Below are positions 3,639-7,203 of a stretch of 34,813 nt of DNA, piece by piece. The stretch lies in the NCBI GenBank assembly GCA_026989015.1, contig JALSKD010000006.1, forward strand, positions 1 through 34,813, read 5' to 3'. Under the pieces are notes generated by a model. That model was not told the origin of the DNA, searched no databases, and worked only from the letters and a program-made list of their open reading frames with translations. Origin of the DNA: Gammaproteobacteria bacterium. Lineage in GTDB: Bacteria > Pseudomonadota > Gammaproteobacteria > GCA-001735895. Numbering within the stretch: position 1 is the first letter of the stretch; each line of letters opens with the position of its first letter. The translations under genes and the position numbers were made by a program.

Positions 3639-5072
3639 TCAGAAACGCAGGATCTTGAGCACCGGCTGATCCTTCTGCCCGCTCTTGCCGAATCCGGACA
3701 GCACGGCCAGCGAACGGTCGTTCAGCGACAGCCCCAGGCGCCGTGCGACAATTCGGCTCATACGCTGCCAGTCGGCGATCTCCGCCGGCTTCAACTGCAT
3801 CGGTATCACCCCCCAGTTAAGGGTCAGCACCCGCGCCGTGCGCGCATCGGGGCATACCCCGATCACCGGGGCCGAGGGCCGGAATGCCGACACCACCATC
3901 GCCGTGGTGCCACTGCGCGTCGGCACCAGCAACGCCAGCAGTCTGAGGTCCCGTGCAATGCCCATCGCCGCATTGGCCAGCGCGCGGCGCGGTGACTCGG
4001 CCACCCGCATGTCCAGATCGTCTCCGCAACGGGGGCTGCGCTGACGCCACTGCTCGGCTTCACGCAGGATTGCATTCATGTAACGCACGGCCTGCAACGG
4101 ATAACGGCCCACCGAGGTTTCTCCGGAGAGCATCACCGCATCGGCACCGAGCATCGCCGCATTGGACACATCGCCCACCTCGGCCCGTGTCGGGCGCGAG
4201 GAGTCGATCATCGATTCCATCATCTGGGTGGCAACGATCACCGGCTTGCAGGCGGCCCGCGCCCGGTCGATCAGTTCCTTCTGCACCATCGGCAGACGGG
4301 CGGGATCGATCTCGATACCCAGATCGCCGCGTGCGATCATGATGCCATGGGCTTCCTGCAGGATGCCGTCGATGGCTTCCAGGGCCTGGGGCTTCTCGAT
4401 CTTGGCGATCACGGGCAGCTCGCCGCCGTGCCGCCGGAGGTAACGCTTCAGCGCCAATATGCCCTCCGCGCTGCGCACGAAGGACAGCGCCAGCAGGTCC
4501 ACAGCCTGTTCCAGCGCGAAGCGGGCATCGCGACGATCGGCGTCGGTCAGCGAGGGTGCCGAAACCCGACTGTCGGGCAGGTTGATGCCCTTGCGGTCGG
4601 TCAGCACGCCGCCATAGATCACCCGGCATTCGATGTCGCGCCCCTTCACCGACAGCACCTTGAGTTCCAGCTTGCCGTCATCGAGCAGGATGCGGTCTCC
4701 GGGCTTGACGTCCTTGTGCAGTGCCCCGTACTGGCTGGGGATTACCCCGTCGCGGCCGGTCACCCGGCGCGTGGTCACCACCACCACGGAGCGCGCCTTG
4801 AGTTCCATTGCGCCCCCGGCCAGGGTGCCCACACGGATCTTGGGACCGCAAAGATCACAGAAGATGGCGGCATGAATGCGCATTTTCGATGCCAGTCGCC
4901 GTATCTGCCGGATGCTCTCCGCATGCTCACGATGACTGCCATGGGACATGTTGAGGCGGAAGACATCCACCCCCGCCTGCAGCAGGCGCTCGATCATCCC
5001 CGGTGATTGCGTGGCCGGTCCCAGGGTGGCGATGATGCGTGTTTTGCGCCCTGTATGTATGTTCCTGCTCAT
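3639..5072 (-). CDS. pyk: Pyruvate kinase
   Basis: Converts phosphoenolpyruvate and ADP to pyruvate and ATP, the last step of glycolysis. The 477 residues carry all family landmarks: the N-terminal RKTRIIATLGPATQSP, FRLNMSHGSHREH, FCDLCGPKIRVG, the catalytic AKIEKPQALEAIDGIL, the metal-binding IMIARGDLGIEI, and the signature ATQMMESMIDSSRPTRAEVGDVSNA followed by GADAVMLSGETSVGRYP. The C-terminal domain is complete. ATG 5072 is preceded by a strong AGGGGGG ribosome-binding site. Upstream, a CRP/Vfr-like site at 5124-5139 lies between pyk and a rightward transcript and could affect either. The sequence does not clearly separate the PykA from the PykF type. Confidence 0.97.
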   Translation of the reverse strand: MSRNIHTGRKTRIIATLGPATQSPGMIERLLQAGVDVFRLNMSHGSHREHAESIRQIRRLASKMRIHAAIFCDLCGPKIRVGTLAGGAMELKARSVVVVTTRRVTGRDGVIPSQYGALHKDVKPGDRILLDDGKLELKVLSVKGRDIECRVIYGGVLTDRKGINLPDSRVSAPSLTDADRRDARFALEQAVDLLALSFVRSAEGILALKRYLRRHGGELPVIAKIEKPQALEAIDGILQEAHGIMIARGDLGIEIDPARLPMVQKELIDRARAACKPVIVATQMMESMIDSSRPTRAEVGDVSNAAMLGADAVMLSGETSVGRYPLQAVRYMNAILREAEQWRQRSPRCGDDLDMRVAESPRRALANAAMGIARDLRLLALLVPTRSGTTAMVVSAFRPSAPVIGVCPDARTARVLTLNWGVIPMQLKPAEIADWQRMSRIVARRLGLSLNDRSLAVLSGFGKSGQKDQPVLKILRF

Positions 5073-5123: not shown

Positions 5124-5139
5124 TGTGAAAGCTATCACA
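5124..5139. promoter_or_regulatory. CRP/Vfr-type binding site
   Basis: TGTGA, six bases, TCACA: both half-sites and the spacing match the CRP consensus exactly. It sits between pyk (leftward) and the candidate small RNA (rightward). Relative to the -10-like TATAGA at 5158-5163 its centre falls near -38 to -41, the position used for class II activation. It could also serve pyk. The protein that binds it is inferred (CRP/Vfr family). Confidence 0.7.
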
Positions 5140-5168
5140 CTCTCTGCCAGCCGGATGTATAGACTTGT

Positions 5169-5253
5169 GAACACGCATTGCGAACCTGTGCCTGAGCTCA
5201 GTCAAGCTTCTGAGTTCGGTTTCCGCCAGCCCCCTCGGGCTGGCGTTTTTTTT
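5169..5253 (+). ncRNA. Candidate small regulatory RNA with intrinsic terminator
   Basis: A rightward transcript of about 85 nt is predicted. A -10-like TATAGA lies at 5158-5163 with the CRP-type site over the -35 region. The RNA would have a short unpaired 5' end, a 10-bp stem (5192-5201 with 5210-5219, two G-U pairs, 8-nt loop), then an intrinsic terminator with a T8 tract. No ORF of coding quality lies within it. This architecture is typical of Hfq-dependent trans-acting RNAs. The alternative is a terminated leader (attenuator) of the lipoprotein gene starting at 5359. It matches no family I can name. Confidence 0.5.
5225..5253 (+). terminator. Rho-independent terminator
   Basis: Perfect 8-bp stem GCCAGCCC (5225-5232) with GGGCTGGC (5237-5244), four-base loop CCTC, then G and eight T residues. 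No rightward protein gene ends upstream, which is why a small RNA is proposed. Confidence 0.9.
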
Positions 5254-5358: not shown

Positions 5359-7203
5359 ATGTTACAACGACTGAACACCGGACTGGGGCGCAGCGTCTGG
5401 CTGCCGCTGCTGCTGAGCGCCGGGCTGCTGGGAGGCTGCGGCGGCTCATCCAGCGAAGAGGATACCGGCGCCCTCTACATCTCCCTGACCGATGCCGAAG
5501 GCGACTTCAACCAGTATGCGGTGGATGTCACTTCGCTGCGCCTGTACCGGCCGAACGGTGCGGTGGTCGAAACCCTACCTAGCACCACACGGCTGGACTT
5601 CACCCGTTACATCGATGTCAGCGAATTCATCACCGCGGCCACCGTGCCCTCGGGCGCCTATACCCGCGCCGAGATCACCCTGGACTTCGACGAAGCTGAA
5701 ATCACCGTGGAAAATGCGGATGGCAACTCGGTACCGGGCACGGCGGTCGACCGTCAGGGCGAAACACTGGGCAGTCTGACCCTGACCGCCACCATCAACG
5801 GCGGCGAGGGCTTTGTCATCAGCCCCGGCCAGCTGCGCGACCTGACCATCGACTTCGATCTCGAAGCCTCCAATGATGTGACCCTTGCCGACGACGGCCA
5901 GAGCGCCACGGTGGTGGTGAAGCCGGTCCTGTCCGCCACCACGCAACGCGACTTCGACGATGAAAAACTGCGCCGCGCGCGCGGCCTGCTCGACAGAGTC
6001 GATACCGAAAACCGCAGCTTCGTGATCGACATCCGTCCGTTTCAGGTACGCCACCGCAGTCACGGCGAGTTGACGGTATGGACCGACGACGACACCCGCT
6101 TCGAAATCGATGGCGTAGCCTACACCGGCGATGAAGGCCTCTCCGCACTGGCCGCGCTCGGCACCGGCACGCCGGTCGTCACCCTGGGCCGTTTCGACAG
6201 CGATGCACGCCGCTACCGTGCCGAGGAAGTATTTGCCGGTGAAAGCGTACCCTGGGATGACCGCGATGCCGCGCGCGGCTCGGTCATCGTTCGTGACGGC
6301 AATCGCCTGACCCTGCTCGGTGCGGCCATCGAGACCGGCAACGGCGTGATCCGCTTCAATGACGAACTGACGGTGTTGATCGATGAAAGCACCCGCGTCC
6401 ACAAGCAGGGGAGCGCCGATAGCGCGGACATCACCAACATCAGCATCGGCCAGCACATCAGCGTGATCGGTCGCTTCAACGACGAAGGCGAACTCGATGC
6501 CACCGGCAATGCGGAAGGCGTGGTTCGCATGAAATACAGCGACCTCGCGGCCAGCGTGGTGGACAAGGGCAATGGCCTGGTGGTGGACCTGCAGAGCATC
6601 AACAACCGCAGCGTCAGCCGTTTCGATTTCACCGGCACCGGCAGCGATGCCGCCAATGACGCCGATCCGGATGCCTACGAGGTGGATACCGGCACACTGC
6701 CGCTGCACAGCATCGACCTTTCCGACCCGGTGTGGATCCGCGGCTTCCCGACCGCCTTTGGCAGCGCACCGCCGGATTTCGAAGCCAAGACCGTCATCGA
6801 TGTCAGCTCAATGCTGACCAAAATGCTGATCTCCTGGGAGCCGGATGGCAGCACCACCGCCATTGCCGAACTCGACGGCAGTGGCCTGCTGCCGGCCATC
6901 GAGGATGCCGGCAAGCTGCACCACCTGAAGCGCGCCGGTGTACTCACCGACCTGAGCGATCTGCAGACCCTGCCGCGCATCGTGCCGCAACAGGGCAAGC
7001 CGGGCCTGTACATGATCAGCGAAGGCCCCACCGTCAGCGTGTTCCACGACTGGAGCCATTTTGCCGGCGAATTGCAACAACGGCTGGAAGAAGGCAGCCC
7101 GGTACTGTTGATCACCGCCCAGGGCCGGTATGACCCGCAGGCCGCCGAACTGGCCAGCCGCAAGGTGGTGGTCCGCCTCGGCGGGCTGGCCTGGCCGCTG
7201 TGA
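5359..7203 (+). CDS. DUF4382-containing lipoprotein
   Basis: Predicted 614-residue lipoprotein. The N-terminus has a signal peptide ending in lipobox LLGGC with Cys27, followed by a Gly/Ser linker. Residues about 37-200 resemble DUF4382, a beta-rich domain of secreted proteins (GALYISLTDAEGDFNQYAVDVTSLRLYR is the typical opening). The rest is acidic and beta-rich with repeated strands such as TRVHKQGSADSADITNI and GQHISVIGRF, resembling DUF5666-like barrels. ATG 5359 is chosen because GAGG lies just upstream and the signal peptide begins there; the reading frame extends to 5125 only through the intergenic RNA region. Function is unknown. It is probably anchored in the outer membrane or faces the periplasm. 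Confidence 0.8.
   Translation: MLQRLNTGLGRSVWLPLLLSAGLLGGCGGSSSEEDTGALYISLTDAEGDFNQYAVDVTSLRLYRPNGAVVETLPSTTRLDFTRYIDVSEFITAATVPSGAYTRAEITLDFDEAEITVENADGNSVPGTAVDRQGETLGSLTLTATINGGEGFVISPGQLRDLTIDFDLEASNDVTLADDGQSATVVVKPVLSATTQRDFDDEKLRRARGLLDRVDTENRSFVIDIRPFQVRHRSHGELTVWTDDDTRFEIDGVAYTGDEGLSALAALGTGTPVVTLGRFDSDARRYRAEEVFAGESVPWDDRDAARGSVIVRDGNRLTLLGAAIETGNGVIRFNDELTVLIDESTRVHKQGSADSADITNISIGQHISVIGRFNDEGELDATGNAEGVVRMKYSDLAASVVDKGNGLVVDLQSINNRSVSRFDFTGTGSDAANDADPDAYEVDTGTLPLHSIDLSDPVWIRGFPTAFGSAPPDFEAKTVIDVSSMLTKMLISWEPDGSTTAIAELDGSGLLPAIEDAGKLHHLKRAGVLTDLSDLQTLPRIVPQQGKPGLYMISEGPTVSVFHDWSHFAGELQQRLEEGSPVLLITAQGRYDPQAAELASRKVVVRLGGLAWPL

Follow-up and report, generated by a model that had tools for sequence, protein, structure and literature searches.

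A predicted CRP-activated small RNA gene between pyk and a lipoprotein gene in a clade of uncultured Gammaproteobacteria

CyaR of the enterobacteria is a small RNA that is activated by CRP and binds Hfq (PMC4098024), while Spot 42, AzuCR and VcdRP are RNAs repressed by CRP (PMC8672173); in the parts of these two papers drawn on here, the CRP-controlled small RNAs come from enterobacteria and vibrios. The window, that is, the whole stretch of 34,813 nucleotides analysed in this study, contains a locus which, judging from comparison with related genomes, is with high probability a real and conserved small RNA gene switched by CRP. We consider it probable that this locus is a stand-alone small RNA gene of about 82 nt, activated by cAMP-CRP in the class II manner and most likely acting in trans with Hfq. 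It is like CyaR in its proposed activation by cAMP-CRP, its size class, its terminator with a T-run and the presence of Hfq in the genome, but it differs from CyaR in its neighbours and its sequence, and the CyaR model does not match it. With Spot 42, AzuCR and VcdRP it has in common that a small RNA gene is read by CRP; in contrast to these, the CRP site here replaces the -35 element, which is an activating place, and there is no Rfam match. The RNA would work like CyaR rather than like Spot 42, AzuCR or VcdRP.

The Rfam scan gave no match at the gathering scores and no family in it covers the RNA, and for the CyaR and Spot 42 models no match was listed at an E value of 5. The best match below threshold was anti-hemB of Burkholderia (RF02837), with 34 bits in the window and 31.6 bits in the relative G001; it was rejected, since neither score reaches the gathering threshold of 49.5 and the other six relatives gave no listed match at an E value of 1. 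Membership in the RyhB family was also rejected (19.7 bits versus 55). A search of openly licensed papers found no report of this RNA. On sequence grounds, the best reading is that the RNA represents a new family belonging to a small clade of uncultured Gammaproteobacteria; if this is true, a separate RNA family in that clade is under the same CRP switch, and its promoter, ends, pairing region and relatives are defined well enough for direct testing. Elsewhere, a coronavirus 5'UTR model scored 22.9 bits, versus a gathering score of 150, on the minus strand of a bacterial contig (L071:1376-1592), which was taken as a chance match.

The CRP site and the predicted promoter

The locus lies between the pyruvate kinase gene pyk (3639-5072, minus strand; PF00224, PF02887 and TIGR01064) and a DUF4382 lipoprotein gene (5359-7203, plus strand; PF14321, 31.6 bits versus a cut-off of 25), and on the plus strand between them stand, in order, a CRP site, a -10 element, a stem-loop and a terminator. 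As the two flanking genes diverge, no gene ends at the terminator (5224-5253), in agreement with the initial annotation, and a transcript terminated there would be expected to start between them. The CRP site, TGTGAAAGCTATCACA at 5124-5139, is the perfect palindrome TGTGA-N6-TCACA that had been described from the window, in which it occurs once versus 0.01 times expected from shuffles. A perfect site with 10 of 10 positions was found between pyk and the RNA in all eight genomes that carry the RNA, and G004, which does not carry it, has no such site. In the whole 2.9-Mb genome the perfect palindrome is present at three places. The second (L002:1501-1516) stands, as we read that contig, about 140 nt ahead of an open reading frame that presumably has a lipoprotein-like start further inside, and the third (L003:1149-1164) adjoins what we take to be a type IV pilin-like gene cluster.

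A -10 element at a class II distance from the CRP site had also been proposed, and the distance is indeed kept in the relatives, but the conserved element is TAGACT at 5160-5165 (plus strand) and not the overlapping TATAGA at 5158-5163; both are contained in TATAGACT, which spans 5158-5165. On the RNA side, a TANNNT sequence is found 20 nt after the last base of the CRP site in six of the eight genomes (TAGACT in three, TACACT in two and TAGAAT in one), while it is found at 21 nt in G012, and G016 has TATAAT at 32 nt. Six of eight genomes at a common offset were reached in none of 20,000 shuffles of the flanks, these being simple base shuffles that do not control for kinship. In the seven genomes with 20- or 21-nt spacing, no more than three of the six bases of TTGACA are matched at the -35 position. 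A generic sigma-70 scan found no promoter in the RNA region, as is expected where CRP stands in for the -35 element.

When the -10 element is set at -12 to -7, the centre of the CRP site falls at -40.5, and the usual class II position is -41.5, as given in the part of PMC2859248 that is relevant here. The site thus lies where it overlaps the -35 region with the -10 element downstream, and the spacing is within 1 nt in seven of the eight genomes and departs in G016. In the latter the CRP centre is at about -52.5, and, since CRP is described in the same part of that paper as activating only weakly near -50 (PMC2859248), G016 is a true exception. With TAGACT as the -10 element the start moves from the earlier estimate near 5169 to near 5172-5173, and the RNA becomes about 82 nt long instead of the approximately 85 nt first suggested. 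The models for CRP, Hfq and a class III cyclase had matches above their cut-offs in all ten genomes tested. The CRP protein sequence was inspected in G016, and we take its recognition helix to resemble that of E. coli CRP.

We propose that, at high cAMP, CRP would bind at 5124-5139, take the place of the missing -35 element and recruit RNA polymerase to the -10 element at 5160-5165 in the class II manner. An RNA of about 82 nt would then be made, starting near 5172 and ending with the terminator at 5253, and this RNA would act in trans together with Hfq, with GAACCUGURCC ahead of the stem-loop pairing with mRNAs. Transcription, activation over repression, Hfq binding and pairing in trans are all steps that we infer.

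Structure and distribution of the RNA

The predicted RNA extends from 5172 to 5253 on the plus strand, its ends being taken from the positions of the -10 element and the terminator; the fold and the matches of the covariance model support it further. The region 5165-5253 folds at -37.1 kcal/mol (z of -4.5 versus 200 dinucleotide shuffles). The likely pairing region, GAACCUGURCC (5182-5192, plus strand), is kept in seven of the eight genomes, G016 being the genome without GAACCUG. It is followed by a 10-bp stem-loop at 5192-5219 (plus strand; arms 5192-5201 and 5210-5219) and by an intrinsic terminator at 5224-5253 (plus strand) made of a 9-bp stem (5224-5245) and eight T residues (5246-5253), so that the 10-bp stem-loop and the terminator with T8 are both present in the order in which they had been reported. 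The stem-loop is paired in 98.8% of the cells across the eight genomes, and a single pair carries changes in both partners, but its covariation was no greater than that of shuffles (166 of 500); therefore, it is conserved more than it is covarying. The minimum-energy fold of G016 departs from those of the other genomes in this stem. The terminator does covary: its six basal pairs are paired in all eight genomes and four of them are changed on both sides, and none of 2000 shuffles was as well paired, with the arms aligned by hand from predicted folds. As far as can be judged from the nucleotides, this is a free-standing short unit with an intrinsic terminator and a long T-run, as is expected of an Hfq-dependent small RNA acting in trans.

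The comparison is based on eight related genomes of one family, the window's species and seven related species, in which the RNA, the CRP site and the -10 spacing are kept together; this conservation strongly supports the initial annotation of a CRP-activated small RNA gene. When 57 genomes were searched at the DNA level, G001 and G008 matched clearly and G016 over a short stretch. With a covariance model built from four sequences, from four of the eight RNA-carrying genomes, the RNA was found at 55-89 bits in eight of nine full loci of pyk orthologs (G000, G001, G002, G006, G008, G012, G014 and G016), so that the check proposed with the initial annotation, conservation of the stem beside pyk in relatives, came out in its favour. 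The matches in G002, G006, G012 and G014, at 55-68 bits, are independent of the sequences used in the model. The pyk orthologs used in this comparison have 62-100% identity. The remaining full locus, in G004, has no RNA by the covariance model, and G010 was left out of the count, its pyk ortholog being partial and its upstream side missing. The comparison of these loci indicates that the RNA is a conserved unit whose direction and terminator are defined.

Across 41 genomes of the order, one strong copy was found in each of the eight genomes, together with two weak matches of about 27 bits (L074 and L075) that were rejected as ordinary terminators, since they follow protein-coding sequence and have no CRP site. 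In 369 genomes of the class, with 12 candidates per genome scored, a search with model R1 found the RNA in G000 and G002 alone, both of its own family, though weak copies may escape such a search. An exact pattern run over the contigs of GTDB r220 had seven matches, of which six were relatives already known, all titled Gammaproteobacteria; the seventh, in an Acidobacteriota contig (L082), had no CRP site and 12.7 bits and was rejected as an unrelated chance match. The same pattern had no match in viral contigs.

Other readings of the locus

CRP-repressed small RNAs are known from the portions of PMC8672173 and PMC4098024 considered here, and CRP could repress this RNA too, as with Spot 42 and VcdRP. 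However, the seven genomes with 20- or 21-nt spacing have no -35 element and the CRP site is at the class II activating position, which makes repression improbable. It is about equally improbable that the CRP site serves the divergent pyk gene and that the stem-loop and terminator are incidental. The site is palindromic and upstream of pyk in all eight genomes, and some relatives have TACAAT-like boxes nearer pyk; yet no TANNNT is found at a common offset on the pyk side, where each of the offsets from 10 to 44 is represented by at most one genome, the distance from the site to the conserved pyk motif varies from 82 to 256 nt, and G004 lost the site and the RNA together but kept pyk. One CRP site may nevertheless control both the RNA gene and pyk. 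In L038, L041, L042 and L043, another CRP-like site, weaker and with 8 of 10 positions matched, is found between pyk and the perfect site; it reads TGTGAA...TCTACAAT or similar towards pyk and overlaps a possible pyk -10 element, and could let CRP hold pyk down.

The stem-loop and terminator might also form an attenuator in a 5' leader that controls read-through into the DUF4382 lipoprotein gene, which is indeed the next gene on the same strand in G000, G001 and G008. In G002, G012, G014 and G016, however, the next gene is an opposing gene of 141 aa, and the RNA is still kept. The lipoprotein gene thus follows in three of the seven assessable genomes and the opposing gene in four (G006 was left out because of a contig end), and since the following gene varies and no open reading frame is conserved, the RNA is not a leader; the attenuator is largely refuted and we give it very little weight. 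In the window, an open frame does extend from 5125 across the RNA and on into the lipoprotein frame, as might be expected of a short coding or dual-function mRNA. In contrast, no closed open reading frame of at least 8 aa is common to the predicted transcripts of the eight genomes, and five of the eight have none at all, so that the small-protein reading was rejected and coding function appears extremely unlikely. By these comparisons the RNA neither codes for a protein nor serves as the leader of one fixed gene.

Possible targets and the exchangeable front part

For the preferred reading, a stand-alone small RNA acting in trans, exact 9-nt complements of the pairing region were searched. In all, 152 sites were examined (57 in G014, 50 of 69 in G012, 33 in G002, and 12 among the sites listed for G006 and G008 together), as well as a further 16 in G000 and G001, and among them no conserved complement near a start codon was found. 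Sites common to several genomes fall inside conserved coding sequence, one of the genes concerned being presumably ribosomal protein S15-like. Between the sites of G000 and G001 there was one weak protein match, located deep within coding frames. When the lipoprotein start of the window was paired with the RNA, the loop ranked 12 of 200 and the 5' part 77. In seven of the eight genomes, pairing between the pyk 5' region and the RNA did not exceed that of shuffles (G006 ranked 12 of 200). This pairing result and the lack of a -10 element at a fixed distance facing pyk leave unsupported both pyk as a regulated target and the link to carbon metabolism that had been drawn from its adjoining position.

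Between the CRP site and the conserved RNA lie 57-63 nt in four genomes, and 118, 162 and 180 nt in three others. In G006, G012, G014 and G008 the conserved RNA starts far behind the predicted transcript start, which counts against the preferred reading, as do the exception in G016, the stem-loop that covaries no more than shuffles, the lack of a conserved target among the sites examined, and the restriction of the comparison to eight genomes of one family. The front part is a short 5' end in G000, G001 and G002, a leader about 60-120 nt longer in G014, G012 and G006, and a protein gene in G008. In the last, a PEP-CTERM gene of 194 aa (PF07589; L006:930-1514) lies between the CRP promoter and the RNA, and it starts 21 nt after the point where transcription is predicted to begin; its stop codon is inside the conserved RNA, and therefore the RNA would be the 3' end of the PEP-CTERM mRNA. 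The CRP promoter and the RNA are constant while the part between them changes, which suggests that longer transcripts may be processed to yield the RNA in these genomes. It is thus conceivable, although we hold this only tentatively, that the locus is a CRP-driven unit in which the front is exchangeable and the RNA forms a constant 3' end, and that the mature RNA is cut near AAAGAACCUG by a ribonuclease. If this is true, the transition between an intergenic and a 3'-UTR-derived small RNA can be seen within one clade under a single CRP switch, and in one relative, G008, the RNA would have become the tail of an mRNA. On the other side of the RNA, the terminator is followed in L005, L007, L038 and L042 by short repeated words, such as CCATGGATGG, GGCCAGGGAT and CACAGGGATGTG, that are like dispersed genome repeats.
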